Assembly: GCA_903861145.1 (NCBI GenBank)
Contig: CAIOTH010000039.1
Location: 1 to 40,764, forward strand
Direction of reading: 5' to 3'
Length of the DNA stretch: 40,764 nucleotides
From: an uncultured Bacteroidota bacterium
GTDB taxonomy: Bacteria > Bacteroidota > Bacteroidia > Chitinophagales > LD1
The translations under genes and the position numbers were made by a program. Within the stretch, counting starts at the first letter, position 1, and the number at the start of each line of letters is the position of its first letter. The notes under the pieces were generated by a model that saw nothing but the letters and a program-made list of their open reading frames with translations, ran no database searches and was not told the DNA's origin. Positions 18,862-35,492 of this stretch are shown here, one piece after another.

Positions 18862-19150
18862 GTCTAGATTTATTTATATCGAAAATAATTAATTCTGCAG
18901 CAAGGGATAATTATCCGCACCCTGCCTATAAGTTTTTATTTAAGTTATTGGGAGTCTGTTTAGTTTTGTGATTGAGTTTAATTGGGACCGGTAGGACTGT
19001 TGTTCGTGGCTTGGCTTGGTTCGCATGACATGGGAGGCTTAATACGAGATTACTCATTGCTCTTTTTTTAAGAAATTGGAATTCGTGAATGCTTAAACAT
19101 TATGGGTGTATAGTCTAAGCATTTGCCTGGTCGGAGAGCCGGAACCATGA

Positions 19151-19300
19151 AAAAGGTTACAAAGGGTTACAAAAGGTTACATTTTCCATTTTCGAGTTTC
19201 AGGTTGAAAAATGCGGGGAGAGGCAAAAAGTTGACAAAACTTGACAAAACCCGACAAAATCTATTTTCCATCGTCAAAAAGTACACAAAAGTACACCGAA
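19151..19300. repeat. Three runs of 10-bp tandem units
   Basis: Units are AAAAGGTTAC-type (three copies, 19151-19180), TTGACAAAAC x2 plus CCGACAAAAT (19231-19260), and GTACACAAAA plus GTACACCGAA (19281-19300). All share a period of exactly 10 bp and an AC-AAAA core. The middle run recurs at 34137-34173. Confidence 0.7.
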
Positions 19301-19402
19301 TTAGCGGTTTAGCCTTTTTACCGTAATTCTTCGCACGCCGGATGCAAGTTTGATGCAACAGAAATTAACCAGGACCAAACCAACTTTAACGTCAAAAAGC
19401 TA

Positions 19403-20646: not shown

Positions 20647-22140
20647 TTAATGATAGGGCAGCTCATTGTTGGCCATCATTTTATTTATGGCATTAAGGTT
20701 TTGCTGCTTACTGAAGCAATAAGATTGCCAGCCCGCTTGGGCCTGATGCGTTTTCAGCCTCTCGTAACTTGCATACATACTGCTTACAACCTGCGGAGTA
20801 AATACCTGGATATGGTGCGTTGGCTCCTTCCTTTCGGTGGCATAGTATTTAAAAAGTGTGGCGAGAGAGGTATGGCTCAGTTGCGCCTGGTAGCCGCGGT
20901 CGATGTAGCCGAGTTCGAGTTCTTTAAAATTTTTGCAGTTGTAGTTTACAATCAACTCATCCCAGTTAATGAAGCAGGCGATGATGAATACAGCATAGAA
21001 TACCCAGGCATTTTTGCGGAAGAGAAACCAGTTGCTTTTGCGCTGCATTACCTTAATAAAAGTTGTAGTAAGGCCAACGAGGCATAAAAGTAGATAAACG
21101 TACACGCCTATTCTTCTTCGCGTTAAGCCTGATGATTCAATGATCCACCAGTTGCGATTGGCGGTGGTAATAACCAGTATTGCGTTTTGAGCAATCCATA
21201 AGTAAGCGAGTGACTTGAGCCATTTGTTGCTTTCGAAAAAGTTAAGGTAGCCGCGAAAGACAAACAGAATTACGGCGATGGCCATAATGATGGAAATGAT
21301 AAGCGTGTCGGTACCATCGTGCAGATATTTAGCAATAGTGATGCCTTCGGGCAGGCGGTTGGCTATCCACATGTAAAACACATCGATGCCGTTAACGCAG
21401 AGTAGAACAAGGTTGAGCATGGAGAATAAAATGATACCGGTTAGTAGTTCGTTGGGCACCGATAAGGTTTTACCTAAATCGGTTAGCAAGTGTTGGTCGA
21501 GCGTAATGGTTTGGAGGTTATCTGGCGAATGGCCATCGGCCTCGTTTATATTACGAATAATGTACTGTTTGAAAAGGCCGAACAACAGGAAGAACCCGAA
21601 TGCAGTGAAAATGCACCAGTCGATGCTGATGAAATCGAGGTTAATCTGGTCGACGAATTTGGCAAATATGGGATTAGCGGCACGATAGACAAACACAAAG
21701 ACAAGTGTAATAATGGCGGGTACTACAAACAACAACAGTCGCGTAAAATTGCTGGTAGAATTACCCTCACCCTGTGTAAACTTTAACGAGCCACTAAAGA
21801 ACCGTGGTATGGAAGTTGCGGTTGATATGAAGCTATTGAATGCTGCAATGAGCAAAGAAGATTCGGTATTAAAACTTAGGCTGGCAAGCATAAAAAGCGA
21901 GCATAGGTTTGCCAGCCACGGAAGCGTGGTGCCCCACCAAAAAACAAAAAATGCTGAAAGCAGATAACCAGTGGCAACTGCGAGCCAGGCTGAACGTTTA
22001 ATGAGGGTTTTGTCTTTTAAAAAAAGCAGCAGCACAATGAGCAGGCTAAACAACAGAAAGTTTAAACCGGCGCTTTGGCGGTAAAAAAGATAGCTGAAAA
22101 GGGCTGTTGCTACCAGGATAAATATGTCGTTCGTTTTCAT
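20647..22140 (-). CDS. DUF4153/DUF4173-type polytopic membrane protein
   Basis: 497 residues with roughly ten or more hydrophobic helices (for example FLLFSLLIVLLLFL and IITLVFVFVYRAANPIF). A signature RRRIGVYVYLLLCLVGLTTTF precedes a soluble C-terminal part of about 110 residues (LELGYIDRGYQAQLSHTSLA). This matches the DUF4153/DUF4173 group of inner-membrane proteins of unknown function. It is the last gene of the minus-strand membrane cluster; 29 bp separate it from the DUF1361 gene, so co-transcription is likely. The choice between the two DUF names is uncertain. Confidence 0.75.
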   Translation of the reverse strand: MKTNDIFILVATALFSYLFYRQSAGLNFLLFSLLIVLLLFLKDKTLIKRSAWLAVATGYLLSAFFVFWWGTTLPWLANLCSLFMLASLSFNTESSLLIAAFNSFISTATSIPRFFSGSLKFTQGEGNSTSNFTRLLLFVVPAIITLVFVFVYRAANPIFAKFVDQINLDFISIDWCIFTAFGFFLLFGLFKQYIIRNINEADGHSPDNLQTITLDQHLLTDLGKTLSVPNELLTGIILFSMLNLVLLCVNGIDVFYMWIANRLPEGITIAKYLHDGTDTLIISIIMAIAVILFVFRGYLNFFESNKWLKSLAYLWIAQNAILVITTANRNWWIIESSGLTRRRIGVYVYLLLCLVGLTTTFIKVMQRKSNWFLFRKNAWVFYAVFIIACFINWDELIVNYNCKNFKELELGYIDRGYQAQLSHTSLATLFKYYATERKEPTHHIQVFTPQVVSSMYASYERLKTHQAQAGWQSYCFSKQQNLNAINKMMANNELPYH

Positions 22141-22169
22141 GGTTTTAGTTTGATGGTTTTGGAAAAGAA

Positions 22170-22808
22170 CTATTCGGTAATAAATATGGATTCGAAAATG
22201 AAGAAGATGAGAGATAGCAGGGTGCCTGTTACTATTGTTACACAGTATGCACGGGGATAAATAGTTGGGTGAAGAATACGGCTCACGGTATCGGATGTTA
22301 TTTGAAAGGGATTAGTGAGTAAATCCCATGTGTTAAAGCGGAGAAACCTGCCTACGTAAATACCGTAGCCCGAAATGAGCATGGTAAATAGCATAAGGCC
22401 TTTTGCTTTCCAGGGAAGGAAGAGGGTTTTGAGCTTTTTAAAAACGATATGCGCCGATAGAATGCCTAACAGCAAACCGGTAAATGCAAAGGAGTAGAGC
22501 AAAATTGCATCGTACCAAAAAGGGAAGTTAATGCGTGGTTTTAGATGTAGAAAATCGGTGATGATGTAGGGTGCGTTTGGAAAAAAGACGAGCCATGTTG
22601 CGAGGTAAAGAAAAAGATGAACGGGCCGCGACTCGTCTTTTAATTGCATGGCGAACCAAAGGGGGACCCAGGCTAAAATCAAATTCCAGGGCAAAAAGAT
22701 GAAGGTGATGTTATGGGTAATTACAATGCGGCCGACTTCGATAAAACAGCAAAATGCAGATAACAGTGCCAGCCGAGGAATAATAGAATGGAGCTTTGAT
22801 TGTAACAT
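22170..22808 (-). CDS. DUF1361 membrane protein
   Basis: 212 residues with six or so transmembrane helices. The DUF1361 pattern is visible in FLPWNLILAWVPLWFAM and in ATWLVFFPNAPYIITDFLHL, with a conserved NAPY-x3-D segment. Function is unknown; the family is found in many bacteria as single-gene inner-membrane proteins. It stands 29 bp before the DUF4173-like gene and about 250 bp after the regulated 168-residue membrane protein, in the same orientation. Confidence 0.85.
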   Translation of the reverse strand: MLQSKLHSIIPRLALLSAFCCFIEVGRIVITHNITFIFLPWNLILAWVPLWFAMQLKDESRPVHLFLYLATWLVFFPNAPYIITDFLHLKPRINFPFWYDAILLYSFAFTGLLLGILSAHIVFKKLKTLFLPWKAKGLMLFTMLISGYGIYVGRFLRFNTWDLLTNPFQITSDTVSRILHPTIYPRAYCVTIVTGTLLSLIFFIFESIFITE

Positions 22809-22853
22809 GGTTTTTGTTTTGGGTTAGGTAGGTTTGTTTAATAGGCGGGCGCA

Positions 22854-23090
22854 TTACTCATTATAAAAAATACCTAAGGCGTGATATACCAGGCTTACCA
22901 TGGACAATTTTCGATTCAATCGCTTTTCGTTATCATCCCTTTTAACCGCTGGCGTTTCCTTTCCAGCAAGACACCGGTTGGCAAGCGCGATTGCCGCAAT
23001 AAAAGCCGCATCACCGGCTAATTTCAAAACACTGTTTTTTCGAACGCGCATTGCAAAGAGTTTAAAAAATGATGTTGAGCCGGTCTTCAT
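22854..23090 (-). CDS. Doubtful small hypothetical protein
   Basis: A 78-residue open frame starts inside the 3' end of the upstream membrane-protein gene (29-base overlap) and ends 45 bp before the DUF1361 gene. The product has one weak hydrophobic patch (LAGDAAFIAAIALA) and a basic middle, and matches nothing I know. A plus-strand frame of similar length covers the same DNA, which weakens the case. If false, 22809-23061 is a plain non-coding gap. Confidence 0.3.
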   Translation of the reverse strand: MKTGSTSFFKLFAMRVRKNSVLKLAGDAAFIAAIALANRCLAGKETPAVKRDDNEKRLNRKLSMVSLVYHALGIFYNE

Positions 23091-23568
23091 TTGTCAATTT
23101 CTCCAACGCCAGTGTTTTGGTTCGGCATATCCAAAGCGGTATAAACCCGATTACGCCGAATGAACAATCGATGAAGCGCCACCAAATTGGCAAGCCACGC
23201 AAGCCACCAACAATTAAGGCAAAGGGCAAAACCATGATGCAGGCTATCATACCAAACTCGAGCACCCAAATGTTTTTAACCGGGTCTTTTATTACTCCGA
23301 TAAAAGCAATGGCAATAACAAAGTGTGCGAAAGCCAGCCAGTCGTTACCATAAAACAGAAATGGATATCGGGCACCGGTATCCTGCACGGCGTGTAAAAC
23401 AGTTGTAAGCAGGCTGCCCATAGCTGTATCGGCAGGAATGTATTTGAGAATGAGCGTTAGTTCGGTTTCGGCGGGTATAGCAGTTGCGCCACTAAAGATT
23501 AGGGCGGCCATAAAAAAGATGATGATGTATCTTATTTGGCTTTTGAGTTTGGTTATGTTGTTGTGCAT
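23062..23568 (-). CDS. Four-helix membrane protein behind a palindromic operator
   Basis: 168 residues from the ATG at 23568. About four hydrophobic segments are visible (IIIFFMAALIFSGATAI, FAHFVIAIAFIGVI, FGMIACIMVLPFALIVGG, FGVIGFIPLWI), with a conserved-looking GLPIWWRFIDCSFGVIG. I know similar unnamed proteins beside winged-helix regulators in Bacteroidota but cannot give a function. The frame is open to 23604, but the start at 23568 is preferred because it lies exactly 10 nt from a palindrome, just as the other regulated gene does. It follows the regulator gene by 42 bp. Confidence 0.75.
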   Translation of the reverse strand: MHNNITKLKSQIRYIIIFFMAALIFSGATAIPAETELTLILKYIPADTAMGSLLTTVLHAVQDTGARYPFLFYGNDWLAFAHFVIAIAFIGVIKDPVKNIWVLEFGMIACIMVLPFALIVGGLRGLPIWWRFIDCSFGVIGFIPLWICRTKTLALEKLTNEDRLNIIF

Positions 23569-23578
23569 TTTAAAAGTG

Positions 23579-23593
23579 CTTTGAATTTCAAAG
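23579..23593 (-). promoter_or_regulatory. Palindromic operator 1 (CTTTGAATTTCAAAG)
   Basis: A perfect 15-bp palindrome (seven-base arms, one central base) lies between the regulator stop codon and the 23568 start codon. The 10 bases between it and the ATG (TTTAAAAGTG on the plus strand) differ by one base from those at operator 2. It is the likely binding site of the winged-helix protein encoded next to it. Confidence 0.65.
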
Positions 23594-23610
23594 TGAAAAG
23601 ACAAAAAAAT

Positions 23611-23913
23611 TTATTTTCTATTCTGCTTTACCAATTTTTCAAGTGCATTGAGGTGATAGTTGAATTCTTTACGGCCCAGGTTAGTTACTACGTAGGAGGT
23701 TTTGGTTTTCTTTCCTACAAACTCTTTTTTAACTGCTATATAATCCAGCTTTTCGAGCGCAGAGATATGGCTGGCGAGATTACCATCGGTAACATCCAGC
23801 AGCTCTTTAAACGAAAGAAAGTCAACGTGCTCGTTCACCATCAACGCACTCATTATACCCAACCTTATCCGATTTTCGAAAGCCTTATTCAATTTGTCAA
23901 TTACCTCTTTCAC
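23611..23913 (-). CDS. Winged-helix transcriptional regulator (HTH_34 type)
   Basis: 100 residues and a single winged-helix domain: FENRIRLGIMSALMVNEHVDF (helix 1), SFKELLDVTDGNLASHISALEKLDYI (helices 2-3, recognition helix), and a two-stranded wing VKKEFVGKKTKTSYVVTNLGRKEF. This matches the small Bacteroidota regulators of the PF13601 type, which are usually encoded beside the membrane proteins they control. No effector domain is fused. It sits between two membrane-protein genes, both of which carry a matching palindrome directly upstream, and so probably represses its own operon. The signal sensed is unknown. Confidence 0.88.
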   Translation of the reverse strand: MKEVIDKLNKAFENRIRLGIMSALMVNEHVDFLSFKELLDVTDGNLASHISALEKLDYIAVKKEFVGKKTKTSYVVTNLGRKEFNYHLNALEKLVKQNRK

Positions 23914-23945
23914 CGTAGTTTCCTCTTCCTTGCTTTATATAACTT

Positions 23946-24605
23946 TTACCAAAACCTTTTTTCCTTTGGTTGAGCCTCGTAACGCACATACATCAAAAGG
24001 CCATAAATAATATGTAAAACACCAAAACCAATCATCCAAAATGTTATACCATACCCAATGAAGAAGCAACCAACAAGACCGAGAATGATTTCGGAGAAGC
24101 CGAGCCATCTTATTTCGTCGACAGTATATTTAGATGCGTTAACCAAGGCAAGGCCGTAGAATATTAGTGTGGTTGGCGCTACCATACCAAACCAGCCATA
24201 TTTTAAAAGAACCAGGCAGTAAATGCCACCGGCTACCAAAGGTATAGCGAGGTTAACTATCAGGCGCCTACCGGCGATATCCCATATTTTCTGCCCCTTG
24301 CTTTTGGCGTTACGTGTGGTAAAGAAGACAGCGAATAATAAGGACAAAACCAACACCGCGCTGGCATCAAGAATACAAAACGTATGAAAGTCGATGCTGA
24401 TGTCAACCGGGATTTCGCGGGCAAAATGCTTGTATTCGGAATTGAGCTTTTGGTGTATATATAAATGGAAGGCAATGGCACCAGCCATGGCGAAAAAGCC
24501 CGCGAAAACACCCGCCAGCCCGCTAAGCGAGATAAAACGCGAAGAGCGTTCCATCATGCTTCTAATCTCTTTTATCTGCTCTAATTGTTCGTTTGGTTCG
24601 CTCAT
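23946..24605 (-). CDS. Polytopic membrane protein heading the regulator operon
   Basis: 219 residues. A soluble N-terminus (about 25 residues, EQLEQIKEIRSMMERSSRFI) is followed by six or so helices, including LSGLAGVFAGFFAMAGAIAF and ILGLVGCFFIGYGITFWMIGFGVLHIIYGLLMY. I do not know a function. It is the first gene of the operon, with a well-formed promoter and operator 2 upstream; the regulator follows after 32 bp. A membrane protein plus regulator pair of this kind suggests sensing of membrane or envelope state, which is inference. Confidence 0.8.
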   Translation of the reverse strand: MSEPNEQLEQIKEIRSMMERSSRFISLSGLAGVFAGFFAMAGAIAFHLYIHQKLNSEYKHFAREIPVDISIDFHTFCILDASAVLVLSLLFAVFFTTRNAKSKGQKIWDIAGRRLIVNLAIPLVAGGIYCLVLLKYGWFGMVAPTTLIFYGLALVNASKYTVDEIRWLGFSEIILGLVGCFFIGYGITFWMIGFGVLHIIYGLLMYVRYEAQPKEKRFW

Positions 24606-24615
24606 TATAAAAGTG

Positions 24616-24630
24616 CTTTGTAATGCAAAG
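24616..24630 (-). promoter_or_regulatory. Palindromic operator 2 (CTTTGTAATGCAAAG)
   Basis: A 15-bp palindrome with one mismatched pair lies exactly 10 nt upstream of the 24605 start codon. Its CAAAG half (CTTTG on the minus strand) is also the end of the -7 box, so a bound protein would block transcription. The flanking TATAAAAGTG is nearly the same as at operator 1. Confidence 0.7.
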
Positions 24631-24656
24631 TAAATTGAAAAATCTGAATTTTCAAA
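24626..24656 (-). promoter_or_regulatory. Promoter of the membrane/regulator operon
   Basis: On the minus strand: TTTG (24656-24653), a spacer of exactly 19 nt, then TTACTTTG (24633-24626). This differs from TAnnTTTG by one base. The -7 box overlaps operator 2, the arrangement expected for a repressed promoter. Confidence 0.65.
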
Positions 24657-24701
24657 CGGATTAGCGGCGTTAATAGAATTTAACGATTAAGGAAATTGGA
24701 G

Positions 24702-25409
24702 CTACATGCCTTCAGCGGGCATCGTATCGACAATGGCGGGGTTGGTATCTCTGAACAAAACTTCCACTGAACTCTTGTCTTTATAGAATTTGCCGTCAAG
24801 CCCGATGCGCCACGTGCTTTGGGCCCGGGCTATATATGTGGGTACCCTCTGCCGGTTAAGAAACCCATAGTTTCTGGTCACATCTACTATTTCAAATATG
24901 CTATCGGGACATAGACGGAAGACCTGATATGGTTGAGCAGAATAATCCATTTCCTGATACTGCAACACCGGCATTTCTTCAATTTTTTTGCCCTCATCAT
25001 TAAATGTTGCCAGGATCCTCATCGGATTTCCACTGCCGGCATCGCAGGTTTGGCCACCGTAAAGCAGGACTGTTACATTGCCTCTTTTAAACTTACCAAG
25101 TCTGAGAAAATGGACTGCCGCTATATTTCGCGGCGGATAGTTTGGGCACCAATATTCTTTCAGTAGATCGTATTTATTCATATCTACGCTGTCAAACGCG
25201 GGGTGGCCAGAAGGTTGGTAATCAAAGAAACGCTGATCGGTATCGCAAAAAACGACACACCGATGCCCAACCGTATTCTCGTTGAGGTCGGGGAACATAT
25301 CCCTACACTCTTTAAACTCCCTTTTTCGTTGTCCATGCTGACACCCGCTGGTTAAAAACAACAGCGTTAATGTTCCAAAAAGAAGCGTTGTAACTCGGCA
25401 GGTTTTCAT
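24702..25409 (-). CDS. Putative lipoprotein of unknown function
   Basis: 235 residues. The N-terminus is a lipoprotein signal with lipobox LTSGC and the acylated cysteine at 23. The mature part (about 210 residues) has several cysteines (CRDMF, HRCVVFCDTD, GGQTCDAGSG) and a strand-rich look but no family I recognise. It is separated from the regulated operon by about 100 bp and is read in the same direction, upstream of it. Divergent from the DUF962 gene. Confidence 0.75.
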   Translation of the reverse strand: MKTCRVTTLLFGTLTLLFLTSGCQHGQRKREFKECRDMFPDLNENTVGHRCVVFCDTDQRFFDYQPSGHPAFDSVDMNKYDLLKEYWCPNYPPRNIAAVHFLRLGKFKRGNVTVLLYGGQTCDAGSGNPMRILATFNDEGKKIEEMPVLQYQEMDYSAQPYQVFRLCPDSIFEIVDVTRNYGFLNRQRVPTYIARAQSTWRIGLDGKFYKDKSSVEVLFRDTNPAIVDTMPAEGM

Positions 25410-25525
25410 CTATATCAAAGTAAAGCTATTTTATAAAATTAATTGCCGCGACCATTTCAAGTTCTGCATTTTTAATCCGCGTTTTTAAACTTTCAACTAT
25501 TATATTAGCCTAAAATACAAGCACC

Positions 25526-25885
25526 ATGGGTACAGACAAAGTATACACCACCTTTTGGGATTTTTATCCGTATTACCTGACTGAGCATGCAAGGCCATTG
25601 AACCGCAGGCTGCATTTTGTAGGTACTACCCTCGTAATTGCCTGTTTTATATTGGCTATAGTGCTTCACAATGGCTGGATATTTTTGGCTATGCCATTGG
25701 CAGGTTATGGATTTGCCTGGGTGGGCCATTTTATTTTTGAGAAGAACAGGCCGGCAACTTTTAAATATCCGTTCTATAGCCTGGCCTCGGATTTTGTAAT
25801 GTATTACCACACCATTACCGGGCAAATTACCCAAAAGGTAAATGAAGCGCACGTTACGGTAGGCGTTCAGAATAAGTGGGCCTGA
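25526..25885 (+). CDS. Mpo1/DUF962-family membrane protein
   Basis: 119 residues. The pattern TFWDFYPYYLTEHARPLNRRLHF, two hydrophobic helices, GYGFAWVGHFIFEKNRPATFKYPFYSLASDF is the DUF962 family. The yeast member Mpo1 is an iron-dependent dioxygenase that shortens 2-hydroxy fatty acids; the histidines here (H18, H27, H73, H93) are in the expected places. In a Bacteroidota cell it may act on sphingolipid-derived or other hydroxy fatty acids, which is inference. It lies 52 bp before the DinB gene on the same strand. Confidence 0.88.
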   Translation: MGTDKVYTTFWDFYPYYLTEHARPLNRRLHFVGTTLVIACFILAIVLHNGWIFLAMPLAGYGFAWVGHFIFEKNRPATFKYPFYSLASDFVMYYHTITGQITQKVNEAHVTVGVQNKWA

Positions 25886-25937
25886 TATAAGAGTAGTAAG
25901 GCAATAACCTTGCGGAGATTGACTAAAACAGAAGTTT

Positions 25938-26468
25938 ATGAATTTAGAAAAGCTTGAAAGGCAAACGCATGAATCGATTGACTTCTGGATTGATACGTTT
26001 AAGCAATATGACTTTGATAAAATCCTGATGAAGCCGTCGGAGCAATCGTGGAGCCTAGGCCAGGTAGGCGTACACTTGTGGATGGCATCGAAAGGGTTTT
26101 TCTTTAAGAACGCCGAGAAGTGTCTGAGTAAAGAGGGGACCGAAAGGGGCAAAAGCAAAAAGCTTGGGGCGCACATCATTTTTACCTTGCGGATGATGCC
26201 ACCTGTGCGCTATGAAATGCCGCAACAGGTTTCGGTAGTACCAAGACAACCGGAAAGCAAGAAACAATTAATAGCCAAGCTGGAGGAAATTAAAACCCTG
26301 GCCAGCGGATATATTAAACGAATACCTCAAAGCGACCCCGAATTAAAGACCAAACACCCGTTTTTAGGTTGGCTTAATACGGCGGAGTGGATAGAGCTTT
26401 GCAGCATACACTTCAGGCACCATATGGCGCAGAAGAAACGAATAGAAAAGCACTTCGGATGGAAATAG
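25938..26468 (+). CDS. DinB-superfamily protein
   Basis: 176 residues and a four-helix DinB fold: SEQSWSLGQVGVHLWMASKGFF carries the first metal histidine, and the C-terminal ELCSIHFRHHMAQKKRIE holds the others. The family includes thiol transferases and many proteins of unknown role. The helix between has basic stretches (KRIEKHFGWK). It follows the DUF962 gene by 52 bp and precedes the TolC gene by 59 bp. Substrate cannot be told. Confidence 0.85.
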   Translation: MNLEKLERQTHESIDFWIDTFKQYDFDKILMKPSEQSWSLGQVGVHLWMASKGFFFKNAEKCLSKEGTERGKSKKLGAHIIFTLRMMPPVRYEMPQQVSVVPRQPESKKQLIAKLEEIKTLASGYIKRIPQSDPELKTKHPFLGWLNTAEWIELCSIHFRHHMAQKKRIEKHFGWK

Positions 26469-26527
26469 CTGGTGGTAACATCAGTTTTAATCAAATCTGT
26501 TACTTTAGCGCTTCCAAATATTGAAAT

Positions 26528-27904
26528 GTGAAAACTTTGCGCCACGCAGCTTTACTGATTGCCGTTTTTACCACCCAAATTTTATTTGCCCAGGTTGCCG
26601 AAAAGTGGACGCTTGAAAAGTGTATCGACTACGCGTTTAAAAATAATATTACCATCAAACAGGCAGGTCTGGCAACCAGTGTTTCATCTAACCAATTGTT
26701 GCAAAGCAGGCTCAATTTATTGCCCTCGGTAAACGCAAGTGCATCGTACGATTTTAACTTTGGCAATAGTATCAACCCCGTTACTTACACCTTTACCAAT
26801 GGTAATTCGCAAACCTCGCAGGTGGGGCTACAGGGCAACCTAACGCTGTTTAATGGTTTGCAGCAGATATATAACATTCAGAAGACTAAATACGATTTGC
26901 TGGCATCGCAATACGATTATGAGAATGCCAAAAGCAACATGGGTTTAAATATTGCCAGTGGATACCTGCAGATATTATTGAACCGCGAGATATTACAGGT
27001 TGCCAATGAACAGCGCCAAATAACGGCTGAACAAAAAGAAACGGTAAAGAAAAAGTACGATGTTGGTTCATTGCCTGAAGCTTCTTTGCTTGAAGTGGAT
27101 GCACAGCTTTCAAGAGACGAAGCCGGCGTGGTTAACGCCCAGGGGGTTTATGATCTTTCGGTACTGGCACTTAAACAAATGCTGCAATTGACGGATGAGC
27201 AGGCCTTTGATATTGACGTGCCCAACGTTAATGCTGATAACATGGGCGGCATTGCCGACATAAGCTCAGTTGGAGTTTATAATTATGCGGTAAAAAACCA
27301 ACCGGTGATAAAAAGCGCTGAGGCAAAGTGGTTGAGTTCGCAAAGTTCGGAAAAAGTAGCGAAGGGTTTTATTACACCAACTATCTCTCTTGGCTATAAT
27401 CTTTTTTCAGGTTACACCAATGCGCCCAATGAAGGCATAAACTTTCAAACCCTGCAGCTTTATAGTACACCGGCCGATCCTTTTTTCACGCAAATGAAAC
27501 ATAACCTAAAAGACATTCTTGCTTTTCAAATCACTATGCCAATTTTTGGCAAGGGGCAGATTTTTACAAACATAGCCAACGCCAAATTGCAGCAGCAAAT
27601 ACGGCAAATGGACCTTGAAAATTCGAAAGTAAAACTGAGGGCAGATATTGAACAGGCATATACTAACGCCAAGGTTGCTGCGCAAAATTATGTGGCTAAC
27701 CAAAAGAGTTATGAGTCGGCAAAAAAATCATACTATTCGTTAGAGAAAAGATTTGACTCGGGCCTGGCAACTAACTTTGATTTACAGCAATCGAAAAACA
27801 CTTTGGCCAATGCCGAATCGGAAATGATAAAGGCCAAATACACGTACGTTTTCAGGGTTAAAATTCTTGATTATTACCAGGGCAAAGCCTTAACCTTAAA
27901 TTAA
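26528..27904 (+). CDS. TolC-family outer-membrane efflux protein
   Basis: 458 residues with signal peptide (MKTLRHAALLIAVFTTQILFA). It starts at GTG 26528; an overlapping ATG at 26526 is followed by a stop. The TolC repeat pattern is seen twice: LEKCIDYAFKNNITIKQAG and, in the second half, long coiled helices (LRADIEQAYTNAKVAAQNYVANQKSYESAKKSYYSLEKRFDSG). TolC proteins form a trimeric channel across the outer membrane and periplasm. The HlyD-type adaptor gene begins 8 bp after its stop, so the pair is an operon. Confidence 0.94.
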   Translation: MKTLRHAALLIAVFTTQILFAQVAEKWTLEKCIDYAFKNNITIKQAGLATSVSSNQLLQSRLNLLPSVNASASYDFNFGNSINPVTYTFTNGNSQTSQVGLQGNLTLFNGLQQIYNIQKTKYDLLASQYDYENAKSNMGLNIASGYLQILLNREILQVANEQRQITAEQKETVKKKYDVGSLPEASLLEVDAQLSRDEAGVVNAQGVYDLSVLALKQMLQLTDEQAFDIDVPNVNADNMGGIADISSVGVYNYAVKNQPVIKSAEAKWLSSQSSEKVAKGFITPTISLGYNLFSGYTNAPNEGINFQTLQLYSTPADPFFTQMKHNLKDILAFQITMPIFGKGQIFTNIANAKLQQQIRQMDLENSKVKLRADIEQAYTNAKVAAQNYVANQKSYESAKKSYYSLEKRFDSGLATNFDLQQSKNTLANAESEMIKAKYTYVFRVKILDYYQGKALTLN

Positions 27905-27912
27905 ATACACGA

Positions 27913-29286
27913 ATGAAATCTAACAGGGTTATTATCATATTGCTTGTTGTGCTTGCTGCATTAATTGCATTTGCGGTTGTAGCCAAGAAAAAAGGCTGGG
28001 TGGGCAAAGGAGATGTATCGGAAGTTGCCGTAGAAAAAGTCATAAAAAGAAACATAGTAGAAACCGTTACTGCCAGTGGTAAAATCAATCCGCACACCGA
28101 GGTTAAATTGAGCTCGGAAGTTTCGGGGGAGATTATTGAATTGAATGCTCACGAAGGAGACTCGGTAAAGAAAGGCCAGCTGTTGTGTGTTATCAACCCG
28201 GCTATTTATGATGCATTGGTGAAGCAGTCTGCTGCGGGTGTTGACCAAATGAGGGCCAACCTTTCAAGTTCGAAGGCCAATTTAATTCAGATGAAAGCCG
28301 CTGTTGACCAGGCTAAGAGAAACTATGACCGCAGCAAGCAGCTACATGATGAGAAGGTAATTTCGGATGCCGATTATGAAGCCTCTAAACTTTCGTACGA
28401 CCAGGCTGATGCGAATTACCAAAGCGCGCAAGAGCAAGTAAACGCAAATACCTTCAGCGTTAAAAGTGCCGAAGCTCAATTAAGCCAGGCTAATGATAAC
28501 CTGAACAAGACCAAAATTTTTGCGCCTATGTCTGGTATTATTTCTTTGGTGAATGTAAAGTTGGGTGAGCGTGTGGTGGGAACCGCACAAATGGCCGGAA
28601 CTGAATTGATAAGAGTTGCCGACCTTAACTATATGCAGGCTGAGGTAGATGTAAACGAAAATGACGTTTTACGAATAACCCTTGGTGATAGTGCAGATAT
28701 TGAAGTAGATGCCTATGTAAAGAAGAAGTTTAAAGGTGTGGTAACTGAAGTTTCTTACTCTTCAACCACAGCCGCATCGGCGGTAATAAGCACCTCGCAG
28801 GCTACAAACTTTACGGTTAAGATTAAAATATTAAGAGAGTCGTATGTTGATTTAATCAAACCAAAAATTGGCAAGCTATACCCTTTCCGTCCGGGCATGT
28901 CAACAACCGTGGATGTGAAAACCGAGTCTCGCAGTGATGTGGTTTCGGTTCCTATTCAATCTGTAACCACCCGCCAGGAAAAGGATGTAAAGCAAAAGGA
29001 TGAGGATTACGCTAAAACTACGCAGGCTCAAAAATCGGCTGAGGCAGGAAAGAAGGACGCTCATGAAATTGTGTTTGTGATTGAAGGCGGCAAGGTAAAA
29101 GCGAAGGATGTAACCACCGGTATACAGGATGCCAACTACATTGAAATCAAAACCGGATTAAGCGGCAATGAAACCGTGGTGAAAGCACCATTTAAGATGA
29201 TTTCGAAAACGCTGAAAGACGGTGATGATGTAACCGTAGTTGATGAGAAGGATTTGTTTAAAGATCAGAAGGCCACTGATAAATAA
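27913..29286 (+). CDS. HlyD/MacA-type periplasmic adaptor subunit
   Basis: 457 residues with one N-terminal membrane anchor (VIIILLVVLAALIAFAVVA). A lipoyl-like half (VKLSSEVSGEIIELNAHEGDSVKKGQLLCVI) is followed by a coiled-coil hairpin (about 100-190), then the second lipoyl half (KIFAPMSGIISLVNVKLGERVV) and a membrane-proximal beta domain. It would link an inner-membrane pump to the TolC protein encoded 8 bp upstream. No transporter gene follows: the next gene, rnc, is convergent and ends 7 bp away. The partner must be encoded elsewhere. Confidence 0.93.
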   Translation: MKSNRVIIILLVVLAALIAFAVVAKKKGWVGKGDVSEVAVEKVIKRNIVETVTASGKINPHTEVKLSSEVSGEIIELNAHEGDSVKKGQLLCVINPAIYDALVKQSAAGVDQMRANLSSSKANLIQMKAAVDQAKRNYDRSKQLHDEKVISDADYEASKLSYDQADANYQSAQEQVNANTFSVKSAEAQLSQANDNLNKTKIFAPMSGIISLVNVKLGERVVGTAQMAGTELIRVADLNYMQAEVDVNENDVLRITLGDSADIEVDAYVKKKFKGVVTEVSYSSTTAASAVISTSQATNFTVKIKILRESYVDLIKPKIGKLYPFRPGMSTTVDVKTESRSDVVSVPIQSVTTRQEKDVKQKDEDYAKTTQAQKSAEAGKKDAHEIVFVIEGGKVKAKDVTTGIQDANYIEIKTGLSGNETVVKAPFKMISKTLKDGDDVTVVDEKDLFKDQKATDK

Positions 29287-29293
29287 GGAACTA

Positions 29294-30019
29294 TTAAGCC
29301 TCTACTTTATCATCTAACCCAAGTAGCTTAATGGCATTCATGGCTGCATTTTGCTCGGCTGTTTTTTTGCTATAGCCTTCGCCGGTTGCAACCGACTTTC
29401 CGTTTATTTCGAGGCTGATAATAAAATAGGCCCGGCGGTTTCTTGCCTTTTCTTCCATTACCTTAAACTCAATAGTCTTACCCTCTTTTTGTATGTAATG
29501 AAAAATTCGGCTCTTGTAATCTGAATTGGTAGTCTCTAGTTCATCCACATCAATCAGGCCTTGCAAAACACGCTTTTGAATGAACCTCTTTGTTTTATCA
29601 AAACCGGCATCCAGATAAACTGCACCTACTAATGCCTCAAAAGTATTGCCTCCCAAATCGCGACTTATATCAGTCATGCCTTTGCGGTTAAACTTCAGCT
29701 TTTCCACCAGGCCCAACCTCTCTCCTACTTCATTCAACGATTTTCGGTTCACTATTTTCGACCGCAATTCGGTGATAAACCCTTCCTCTTTATAGGGGTA
29801 TTTTCGATATAGAAACTCGCACACAATTGAGTCTAAAATGGCATCGCCTAAAAGTTCCAGCCTTTCGTTGTTATCCTTCGGTTCGTTATATTTTGAACGG
29901 TGCTTAAAAACCTGGTTATAAAGCTTGAGGTTAACGGGCATAATTCCGGTAATCCCCTTTACGTATTGGGCAATCTCCTTATCGCTTGAAAGTAATTGGT
30001 TGTAAAGCTTTTTTATCAA
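29294..30019 (-). CDS. rnc: Ribonuclease III
   Basis: 241 residues. The catalytic signature is ERLELLGDAILD at 52-63, and a second acidic patch lies in FEALVGAVYLDAGF. The C-terminal double-strand RNA-binding domain runs from about 165 (DYKSRIFHYIQKEGK...AEQNAAMNAIKLL). It processes ribosomal and other structured RNAs. It is the third gene of acpP-fabF-rnc, 75 bp after fabF; its 3' end is 7 bp from the adaptor gene's stop, without a clear terminator. Confidence 0.97.
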   Translation of the reverse strand: MIKKLYNQLLSSDKEIAQYVKGITGIMPVNLKLYNQVFKHRSKYNEPKDNNERLELLGDAILDSIVCEFLYRKYPYKEEGFITELRSKIVNRKSLNEVGERLGLVEKLKFNRKGMTDISRDLGGNTFEALVGAVYLDAGFDKTKRFIQKRVLQGLIDVDELETTNSDYKSRIFHYIQKEGKTIEFKVMEEKARNRRAYFIISLEINGKSVATGEGYSKKTAEQNAAMNAIKLLGLDDKVEA

Positions 30020-32487: not shown

Positions 32488-33918
32488 ATGAAAGTACGAG
32501 TTAACAAAACAAAAATCATCGCCACCTTCGGCCCGGCCTGTAGCGATATTGCCGTAATGGAAGAAATGGTAGGCGCCGGTGTAGATGTATTTAGGTTTAA
32601 CATGAGCCACGGCACCCACGCCGACCACCTCGATGGCTTTAAAAAGATAAAGCAAATAAATAAAGAACACGGCCTCAACATCGCCATCCTCGCCGACTTG
32701 CAGGGCCCCAAAATCCGCATCGGCCAGGTGCGCGATAACATGGAGGTGCTCGAAAAAAACCAGATGGTTGAAATAACCAACGTGCCCTGCATCAGCACCT
32801 TCAAAAAGCTATACGTTAGTTACGATAGCCTACCCCAGGAAGTTGAACCCGGCGACGCCATATTAATCGACGACGGCAAAATAGAACTGCGCGTAGTCGA
32901 CACCAATCGCAAAGACCTCATCAATGCCCGCGTGGTCATCGGTGGCAAAATCAGCAACAACAAAGGCGTTAATTTACCCGACACCAAAACCACCGTACCC
33001 GCCCTTACCGATAAAGACCGCAACGACCTAAAATTCGCCATGCAAAACGGCGCCAACTGGATCGCCCTGTCGTTCGTGCGTTCGCCAAAAGATGTGCTCG
33101 AGCTTAAAGAAATCATCGGCAAAAAGAACTCGTACATGAAGGTGATGGCCAAGATTGAAAAGCCCGAAGCCTTGCTGGTTTTAGACGAGATTATTAAAGC
33201 CGCCGATGGCATTATGATTGCCCGCGGCGACCTGGCCGTTGAAGTGCCCCAAGAGCGCATGCCCCTTATACAAAAAGACATTATTAAGCGCTGCATTAAA
33301 CACGCCAAACCCGTGGTGGTAGCTACCCAAATGATGGATAGCATGATTGAAAACCCCAACCCCACCCGCGCCGAAATAACCGACGTAGCCAACGCCGTAA
33401 TTGACGGTGCCGACGCGGTAATGCTAAGCGGCGAAACAAGCATGGGCAAATACCCCGGCCGCGTTATACAGGTAATGGAAAAGATACTCAGCAACATCGA
33501 GCATGCCAACATTATATACGATAAAGAACTAAAAGCCGATAGCACCTCCGACTCATTTATTAGCGATGCAATTTGCTACAATGCCGCCCGCATCAGCGGC
33601 GACCTGGGTGCCAAAGCAATTGTAGGCATGACCTTTAGCGGTTACACCGGCTTTATGCTTAGCAGCTACCGCCCCAAAGCCGACATCTACATCTTTACCG
33701 AAAACCCCGACCTCCTCAACGCACTCAGCATCTGTTGGGGCGTAAGGGCTTTTCACTACAACAAATTTGTAGGCACCGACACTTCCATCCGCGACGTAAT
33801 CCGCGTCCTTAAAGACCAACACCTCATCAAAGCCGGCGACATGATAGTCAACATCGGCTCCATGCCCCTCGCCAACCGTGGAAGGGCCAACATGGTGAAG
33901 GTTACTATGATTGAATAA
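32488..33918 (+). CDS. pyk: Pyruvate kinase
   Basis: 476 residues. Motifs: TKIIATFGPACSD at the N-terminus, RFNMSHGTH, the active-site VMAKIEKPEALLVLDEI and GIMIARGDLAVEVP, and the C-terminal domain. It makes ATP and pyruvate from phosphoenolpyruvate. Length is normal. Codons here are noticeably richer in C than those of plus-strand genes before 29 kb. Opposite-strand frames in it are by-products of that bias. Confidence 0.97.
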   Translation: MKVRVNKTKIIATFGPACSDIAVMEEMVGAGVDVFRFNMSHGTHADHLDGFKKIKQINKEHGLNIAILADLQGPKIRIGQVRDNMEVLEKNQMVEITNVPCISTFKKLYVSYDSLPQEVEPGDAILIDDGKIELRVVDTNRKDLINARVVIGGKISNNKGVNLPDTKTTVPALTDKDRNDLKFAMQNGANWIALSFVRSPKDVLELKEIIGKKNSYMKVMAKIEKPEALLVLDEIIKAADGIMIARGDLAVEVPQERMPLIQKDIIKRCIKHAKPVVVATQMMDSMIENPNPTRAEITDVANAVIDGADAVMLSGETSMGKYPGRVIQVMEKILSNIEHANIIYDKELKADSTSDSFISDAICYNAARISGDLGAKAIVGMTFSGYTGFMLSSYRPKADIYIFTENPDLLNALSICWGVRAFHYNKFVGTDTSIRDVIRVLKDQHLIKAGDMIVNIGSMPLANRGRANMVKVTMIE

Positions 33919-33999
33919 ATACGGTAACCTTGTGGGGGCGCACGGCGATGTTACGAGAAGTTATCCTCACCCCTTGCAAAGAATTTTTAACTTCTCTAT

Positions 34000-34042
34000 T
34001 TTCGTATTATAATACGAAATGCGACAATTATAAGTTGTTGCA
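34000..34042. promoter_or_regulatory. Back-to-back inverted repeats of unknown role
   Basis: TTTCGTATTATAATACGAAA at 34000-34019 is a perfect 20-bp palindrome. It directly abuts TGCGACAA-TTATAAG-TTGTTGCA (34020-34042), an inverted repeat with one mismatch. No terminator-like T run follows. The pair looks like an operator, but no intact gene follows; ATGs at 34060 and 34069 open only a few codons. Confidence 0.5.
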
Positions 34043-34136: not shown

Positions 34137-34173
34137 CCGACAAAAAGTTGACAAAACCCGACAAATTCTATTT
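34137..34173 (+). repeat. 'ttgacaaaacccgacaaa' repeat, second copy
   Basis: The words CCGACAAAAA, GTTGACAAAAC and CCGACAAAT followed by TCTATTT match 19224-19266, which has one more 10-bp unit. The two loci are 15 kb apart in unrelated spacers and in the same orientation. Confidence 0.65.
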
Positions 34174-34234: not shown

Positions 34235-34364
34235 CTTTGCGTGCTTTGGTATTCTCTTTGCGCCCTTTGCGTGAACTGTATTTGCATTCCGCTCTGGTTT
34301 CCTCTTTTGTTTCATCCCGCCTTTCGCGGGAAGGGGACGGAAGGGGCTCGGCTGTTTAACCCCT
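34235..34364 (+). repeat. 'ctttgcg' words, CCCGC hairpin and GGCTGTTTAACCCCT
   Basis: CTTTGCGTGCTTTG (34235-34248) and further TTTGCG words to 34275, then the CCCGC-CTTTC-GCGGG hairpin (34316-34330) and GGCTGTTTAACCCCT (34350-34364). The first and last parts repeat the pair seen at 32421-32471, but in the opposite order. Confidence 0.55.
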
Positions 34365-34436: not shown

Positions 34437-35492
34437 ATGTCAATTAATGTAGCCCTGCTTAAAAGAATATGCGAAACCCCCGGCGTACCCGGCCACGAAC
34501 AAAAAGTGCGCGAACTGATTACCAAAGAACTTAAAGGCGTGGTTGACGAAATTAGTGTTGACAATATGGGCAACTTAATAGCCCTTAAAAAAGGCAAAAG
34601 CGACGCCAAAAAAGTAATGGCCGCCGCCCACATGGATGAAATTGGTTTTATAATAAGCCATATAGATGATAACGGTTTTCTCCGCTTTCACCCCCTTGGC
34701 GGCTTCGACCCTAAAACCCTAACAGCACAACGCGTAATAGTGCACGGCAAAAAAGATTTAGTAGGCGTAATGGGCACCAAACCCATACACTTAATGACCG
34801 CCGAAGAGCGCGTAAAACCCCTGCTGCTAAACGACTTTTTTATTGACCTGGGCATGAAAAAAAGCGAGGTTATAAAATTTATAGAAGTGGGCAACACCGT
34901 AACCCGCGACCGCGAGTTAATTGAAATGGGCGATTGCGTTAACTGCAAATCGATAGATAACCGCGTAGCCGTTTTTATTTTAATTGAAACCCTTAAAGAA
35001 CTGAAAGGCAAAAAAATACCGTACGATTTTTACGGCGTATTTACCGTGCAGGAAGAAGTAGGCATCCGCGGCGCCCAGGTAGCCGCCCACCACGTCGACC
35101 CTCACTTCAGTTTCTGTATCGATACCACCATTGCCTTCGATACTCCCGGCGCCAAACCCGAAGAAATGGTAACTAAACTTGGCGATGGCGTTGCCATTAA
35201 AATTATGGATAGCTCAGCCATTTGCGATTACCGGATGGTGCGCTATATGAAACAGCAAGCCGATAAAGCCAAAATAAAATGGCAAAACGAATTGCTACCC
35301 GCCGGTGGTACCGATACCGCCGGTATGCAGCGCATGGCTAAATACGGCACCATTGCAGGAGCTGTATCTATCCCCACCCGCCACATCCACTCCGTTATCG
35401 AAATGGCCGATAAACACGACATTAAAGGCAACATCGACTTACTAAATGTTTGCGTAAGCAACCTTGATAAATACGACTGGGATTTTAAATAG
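34437..35492 (+). CDS. M42-family aminopeptidase
   Basis: 351 residues of the M42 (glutamyl aminopeptidase/cellulase M) family. Metal ligands are recognisable: AAHMDEIG at 63-70 with H65 and D67, CKSIDNRVA in the middle, the EE pair in FTVQEEVGIRGAQ, an aspartate in CIDTTIAFDTPG, and a histidine in RHIHSVIEMAD near the end. M42 enzymes form dodecameric cytoplasmic tetrahedra that trim peptides. It stands alone, with repeats on both sides. Confidence 0.95.
   Translation: MSINVALLKRICETPGVPGHEQKVRELITKELKGVVDEISVDNMGNLIALKKGKSDAKKVMAAAHMDEIGFIISHIDDNGFLRFHPLGGFDPKTLTAQRVIVHGKKDLVGVMGTKPIHLMTAEERVKPLLLNDFFIDLGMKKSEVIKFIEVGNTVTRDRELIEMGDCVNCKSIDNRVAVFILIETLKELKGKKIPYDFYGVFTVQEEVGIRGAQVAAHHVDPHFSFCIDTTIAFDTPGAKPEEMVTKLGDGVAIKIMDSSAICDYRMVRYMKQQADKAKIKWQNELLPAGGTDTAGMQRMAKYGTIAGAVSIPTRHIHSVIEMADKHDIKGNIDLLNVCVSNLDKYDWDFK

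Follow-up and report, generated by a model that had tools for sequence, protein, structure and literature searches.

The site under study lies in the window, by which we mean the whole stretch of 40,764 nucleotides that was analyzed, inside a 518-bp gap between pyk (32488 to 33918, + strand) and an M42 peptidase gene (34437 to 35492, + strand), both names being assigned by reading the translations. The initial annotation had described here a perfect 20-bp palindrome joined to a 23-base inverted repeat with one mismatch between its arms, followed by stub frames only, and we confirmed both repeats at their positions and the presence of nothing but short frames between the palindrome and the next long gene, which starts at 34437 on the + strand. 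The features recognized at the site are the following:

33958 to 33976, + strand: lead motif (AAGTTATCCTCACCCCTTG), aligned in 25 of the 27 palindrome places of the genome, one of them with a 1-base insertion; its last three bases are TTG, a candidate -33 element
33997 to 34004, + strand: candidate -7 box (TATTTTCG), 20 bp after the TTG, to be compared with the Bacteroidota consensus TAnnTTTG
34000 to 34019, exact match on the + strand: 20-bp palindrome (TTTCGTATTATAATACGAAA), overlapping the -7 box and the presumed start site, possible operator of a repressor
34020 to 34042, no strand assigned: adjoining inverted repeat (TGCGACAA-TTATAAG-TTGTTGCA), candidate second operator or transcript-start hairpin
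34143 to 34170, + strand: module B2, 10-bp direct repeats (AAAAGTTGAC AAAACCCGAC AAATTCTA), exact copy, candidate site of a terminase-small-subunit-like protein

This copy carries neither the boxA-like motif nor arrays A and B1 described below, and it is a gene-less member of its family, made up of the promoter module, the second inverted repeat and array B2. Moreover, a second element of the same family, with a different class of promoter and with modules B1, B2 and C on the + strand, occupies positions 18911 to 19302 of the window:

18911 to 18932, + strand: second-class promoter lead and start (TTATCCGCACCCTGCCTATAAG)
19151 to 19181, + strand: module B1 (AAAAGGTTACAAAGGGTTACAAAAGGTTACA)
19236 to 19263, + strand: module B2, with 2 mismatches
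19277 to 19302, + strand: module C (AAAAGTACACAAAAGTACACCGAATT)

A repeat resembling CCCCTTCCGTCCCCTAAAGGGGAA was also noticed beside several elements (L013, L028/L033 and, in the window, near 34310 to 34360).

The palindrome TTTCGTATTATAATACGAAA is the sole even palindrome with arms of at least 9 bp in the window, and no match to it arose in 100 dinucleotide shuffles of the window. The adjoining inverted repeat recurs in part of the family, with arm sequences that differ between copies: its mean score over 25 copies is 2.28 versus 0.22 in shuffles, none of 300 shuffles scored as high, and a score of at least 6 is reached by 6 of the 25 copies against 0.47 expected. A score of 5 was obtained for the copy at 34000 in the window, and such a repeat is missing from several members of the family.

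On searching the genome (a draft of 4.7 Mb in 174 contigs), as the initial annotation had suggested, we found the palindrome at 27 places when up to 3 mismatches were allowed, versus 1 place for the reversed control, so that further instances of it do exist. Twenty-five of these places align over a module of 76 bp, composed of a lead with the consensus AAGTTATCCNCACCCCTTG, a stretch of 20 bp, TAnnTTCG and the palindrome; L010 and the second place in L016, where the lead is absent, were left out of the alignment, and L022 has one extra base within the module. Of the 25 aligned copies, 18 have and 7 lack the TTG at the end of the lead, a candidate for the Bacteroidota -33 element. The TA of the -7 box is found in 23 copies and TTCG in 24, the exception being L025 with TTTG, the form that occurs in the -7 consensus TAnnTTTG described for Bacteroidota in PMC6414381. 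Furthermore, almost no variation is seen in the left arm of the palindrome, the one overlapping the -7 box, and the right arm is variable (CGAAA, CCAAA, TGAAA, CTAAA). The module may thus be read, from its sequence, as a Bacteroidota promoter with the -7 box inside the palindrome.

A sequence model of the promoter module gave 34 matches at an E value of 1e-3 or lower in its own genome. No match was obtained in 59 relatives (17 of the same genus) under a stricter filter with which weak matches are lost, nor in 394 other genomes of the class, where the stricter filter recovered only 12 of the 34 own-genome matches. The lead by itself is not diagnostic, since its pattern with 2 mismatches occurs at 58 places versus 20 for the reversed control. 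In many loci devoid of the palindrome module, a second class of promoter with a comparable lead (TTATNCNCACCCTGCCTATAAG), or a palindrome resembling TACGCAAATACATTGCGCA, was recognized by eye. In addition, GTTCTTTGACAT, which in our judgment resembles the boxA antitermination signal, recurs with up to 2 mismatches in many copies (L007, L015, L019 and others), about 27 to 70 bp after the palindrome.

Downstream of the promoter module, and always on its strand where the module is present, we identified arrays of 10-bp direct repeats. In array A, AAAAGTATACA is followed, 92 bp on, by two copies placed 10 bp apart; the corresponding model gave 39 matches in the genome at an E value of 1e-3 or lower, 28 of them below 1e-13 and the others partial or weak. 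Array B2, with up to 3 mismatches, occurs at 22 places in the genome versus 0 for the control, and two of these are in the window (34143 to 34170 and 19236 to 19263). Further arrays are represented by B1, C and D. The 65 merged loci contain 30 promoter modules, 28 A, 16 B1 (one of which, in L105, overlaps an A array), 22 B2, 2 D and 9 clear C, A repeats being caught as well by the C pattern when up to 4 mismatches are allowed (18 matches, of which 9 agree at no fewer than 24 of the 26 bases). At least one module is present in 58 loci, including the upstream regions of six genes for helix-turn-helix (HTH) proteins. Among the 25 aligned promoter copies, array A accompanies 15, B1 and/or B2 accompany 8, and neither is found with 2.

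The repeats within an A array agree with one another. In the 28 A arrays scoring at least 45 bits, to which this analysis was restricted, 17 are of the GTATAC type and 11 of the GTTTAC type, with no mixed array; all three repeats are of one type in 27 of them, the third repeat of L218 being degenerate, and the exact 92/10-bp spacing is kept in 26. On a tree of the A-array spacers, the repeat type would have switched about nine times, and at least nine, even though this tree is poorly resolved, with 1 starred branch among 25 inner ones; the starred pair consists of the two adjacent arrays of L098, which differ in type at all three repeats. The persistence of unmixed types through about nine switches suggests that the arrays are live protein-binding sites, and selection by one binding protein would be the simplest account of the agreement within each array.

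A small HTH gene follows the element in L030 (C105) and in L033 (C123). Thus, an intact gene is found after the palindrome elsewhere in the genome, as the initial annotation had thought worth checking, with a weaker copy of the module at C23; these three are the HTH genes, out of 12 matches to the HTH protein in the own genome, that have a promoter-module match at an E value of 1e-3 or lower upstream. Two more upstream matches, both at C133, are weak (E values of 0.05 and 0.28). The HTH protein was found in 6 of the 99 genomes searched, own genome included, and all six belong to the same genus. As regards its identity, the L030 protein matches phrog_24579, a family of terminase small subunits (TerS), with an E value of 4.8e-8. 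One of the 12 paralogues (C135) lies directly before a gene for a terminase large subunit (TerL; Terminase_3, E value of 1.5e-40), the neighbors of the other paralogues being read by eye; this paralogue matches solely PHROG families of unknown function. Nothing exceeded the cut-off in NCBIfam for the HTH proteins, and Pfam returned generic HTH families, mostly below the cut-off. The resemblance to TerS, as judged from these matches, can therefore be considered modest.

Direct repeats of 10 or 11 bp end 19 to 34 bp before the start codon in 5 of the 8 short HTH genes, with a fraction of shuffles not exceeding 0.008; the shuffles keep the single-base content, and the start of L041 was taken one codon late. 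The repeats near the start were not convincing in the short genes L032, L036 and L037, in the four longer paralogues (0 of 4) and in L124, a 95-amino-acid open frame. In L031, 19 bp separate the end of a module C repeat from the start codon of the HTH paralogue, and no HTH gene with GTATAC-type repeats before its start was found. A copy of the HTH gene in phages or other viruses was not confirmed from viral contigs, and the L036 protein was unmatched in the phage collection; the single palindrome match in a viral contig falls within another frame and has no lead.

It is possible to hypothesize, with about equal chances of being right or wrong, that the window site belongs to a lineage-specific, dispersed family in which an operator-promoter is joined to binding sites of a terminase-like protein, the window copy lacking the corresponding gene. 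The palindrome would be the operator of a repressor, overlapping the -7 box and the start site of a Bacteroidota-type promoter. In its complete form, the element would consist of this promoter, a leader, the 10-bp direct repeats and then the small TerS-type HTH gene, the product of which would bind the repeats just upstream. Most copies, including that of the window, are composed of promoter and repeats without the HTH gene and would persist as dispersed elements. Promoter activity, the binding of a repressor, the binding of the HTH protein to the repeats and the mode of spread of the copies are what we infer in this scheme.

The dispersed family itself is well supported; its many copies, the order and strand of the modules, the within-copy uniformity of the repeats and the HTH gene that comes after a few copies were all observed. 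The initial annotation had proposed the operator of a lost toxin-antitoxin or regulator gene. Since the module precedes an intact HTH gene elsewhere, the window copy can be read as a copy without such a gene, and the proposal of a lost regulator comes close and is partly supported; as for the toxin-antitoxin alternative, no such pair was seen after the copies when the frames were read by eye. A search for remnants of HTH pseudogenes in the 65 merged loci (tblastn, E value of 0.05) returned only the already known HTH loci.

According to the description in PMC4737164, the pac site of phage SPP1 extends over promoters, direct repeats and the beginning of the gene for the small terminase, and the SF6 domain shows little repeat specificity. 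As in SPP1/SF6, a complete element of the present family would unite in one stretch promoters, direct-repeat sets and the beginning of a gene for a small HTH protein of terminase type (PMC4737164). However, different from SPP1/SF6, the copies are chromosomal, number dozens and are mostly gene-less, the repeats are 10 bp apart, and the likeness to TerS is modest. A bolder proposal, which we put forward as speculative and rather unlikely, is that one lineage has domesticated and diversified a phage system for packaging recognition, giving several TerS-like proteins of differing specificity together with dozens of co-evolving, gene-less pac-like sites with repressible promoters, arranged in a chromosome-wide network. 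Such a network may represent packaging marks or a regulatory network built from phage parts, and no description of one was found in the titles and abstracts of the open-access literature. If our main hypothesis is correct, sites that stand by themselves all across the chromosome would be following the DNA preference of phage-derived HTH proteins, the use of terminase-like recognition by bacteria would become directly testable, and a repeat family without terminal inverted repeats would be added to those of Bacteroidota (cf. PMC4596501). The absence of mixing in the 28 A arrays provides paired specificities ready for assay.

Among the other explanations, the one that survives best, although we think it has only a minor share of the probability, is that of a MITE-like mobile element, non-autonomous and dispersed either through a transposase or through HTH-directed machinery that would recognize the repeats. 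An element of this kind would be expected to be short, intergenic and non-coding, as is the present one, which occupies 58 loci, mostly without a gene of its own, and which occurs in its own genome alone among the genomes searched. The gap between pyk and the M42 peptidase gene points in the same direction, as it measures 518 bp here, whereas the two closest relatives have 216 and 238 bp; this is consistent with an insertion, the gaps being too diverged to reveal its ends. However, pyk adjoins the M42 match in 7 of the 20 relatives with such a match, with gaps of 4 to 637 bp, and the longest of them, in G012, exceeds that of the window without containing the element. The orientation of the neighbors also fits mobility: the downstream gene is codirected with the element in 35 of 57 loci and opposed in 22 (29 versus 22 without the six HTH genes), so that the element is not a fixed promoter of its neighbor, and no fixed neighbor gene was found across the elements. 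Furthermore, an IS200-like Y1_Tnp gene (E value of 2.7e-7; L013, about 270 to 870, - strand) lies about 90 bp upstream of the C105 element.

Against the MITE-like reading, neither terminal inverted repeats nor target site duplications rise above the shuffled level in 13 full copies (mean longest inverted word of 5.5 versus 5.4, mean longest direct word of 5.5 versus 5.3). The right end is variable, and the best pairs of elements are about 80 to 85% identical over long stretches, which gives no sign of recent movement. A Y1-type motif was present in just 2 of 50 flanking stretches, on which ground a REP/RAYT system was rejected too; REP palindromes are short sequences of 20 to 40 bp, in high copy number and tagged at one end, whereas this element features promoter anatomy and a repeat array. 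As a repeat-bearing MITE, the closest term of comparison is BrickBuilt of Porphyromonas gingivalis, described in PMC4596501 as having 19 intergenic copies, with a leader and a tail around direct repeats and with promoter activity in reporter assays. A Bacteroidota host, intergenic copies and direct repeats are common to the two (PMC4596501). However, BrickBuilt is characterized by terminal inverted repeats and by tandem repeats of 23 nt (PMC4596501), whereas the present element lacks terminal repeats and combines a putative palindromic operator with repeats that are linked to a family of HTH genes.

Another possibility, which we judge improbable, is that the copies constitute the promoters of a regulon, each driving a neighboring host gene or a non-coding RNA. 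The promoter-like anatomy would suit this function, as would the slight excess of codirected genes (35 of 57; 29 of 51 without the six HTH genes) and the 894-amino-acid frame of L016, which begins 9 bases after the palindrome. It is countered by the 22 of 57 downstream genes that are opposed, by gaps of tens to hundreds of bases and by Rfam, in which no match over the elements reached the gathering score. A structured RNA was discarded as a candidate on the same search, with 0 matches in the window and, in 20 loci, a sole match at that score, to a tRNA beside the L013 element.

We also doubt, quite strongly, that the copies are dispersed pac-like sites, at which TerS-like proteins would label chromosomal DNA to be packaged by a phage or a gene transfer agent. 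The likeness to TerS, the TerS-TerL pair and the closeness of the repeats to the gene, comparable to that in SPP1 pac, speak for it. However, the genome yields one Terminase_3 match only. It belongs to the group formed by a small frame, the HTH gene and the TerL gene beside a Schlafen-group-3 helicase (C135; L201, 1125 to 5773), and no capsid or portal gene occurs among the frames scanned on this 7.1-kb contig, where the remaining long frames are those of a secreted protein, of the Schlafen-type helicase and of a protein in which a phage-antirepressor domain is weakly recognized. Moreover, the copies carry promoter-like modules, which packaging would not need.

A site for a recombinase or a chromosome-organizing protein, as also raised by the initial annotation and considered here in dif-, KOPS- and parS-like forms, is very improbable. 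It would fit the many dispersed copies and a GC skew that is positive on the element strand in 47 of 55 3-kb loci; when larger stretches were taken, the skew was positive for 48 of 55 elements and for 45 of 55 near flanks. However, among the 10-kb flanks only 36 of 55 are positive, copies of both orientations occur in a single contig, and the promoter anatomy is left unexplained. In particular, a XerCD dif site is found once per chromosome, at the terminus, and the 27 places over many contigs led us to reject it; likewise, the rule of orientation along the replication strand, suggested by the 3-kb loci, was not upheld by the 10-kb flanks. The window copy at 34000 sits in a stretch of negative GC skew. 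The cumulative skew of the window peaks at about 28 to 29 kb, followed by negative 1-kb bins (range viewed, 22000 to 30000), which may be a terminus-like flip or an effect of gene orientation.

Palindromic operators are known in the same phylum from the Bacteroidetes LexA/SOS system, but the window palindrome fits neither of the main motifs given in PMC8565304, CTAA-N5-TTAG and GGA-N5-TCC, and was discarded as a LexA box. The second palindrome, TACGCAAATACATTGCGCA, is also different from these two main published motifs (PMC8565304). It could be the SOS operator of the genus. With gene names assigned by eye, it precedes recA-like genes (L152, L156, L158 and L174) in four genomes of the genus, own genome included, as well as HTH genes (L154, L157, L159, L162, L167, L168, L170, L175 and L176) and topoisomerase-, exonuclease- and transposase-like frames.
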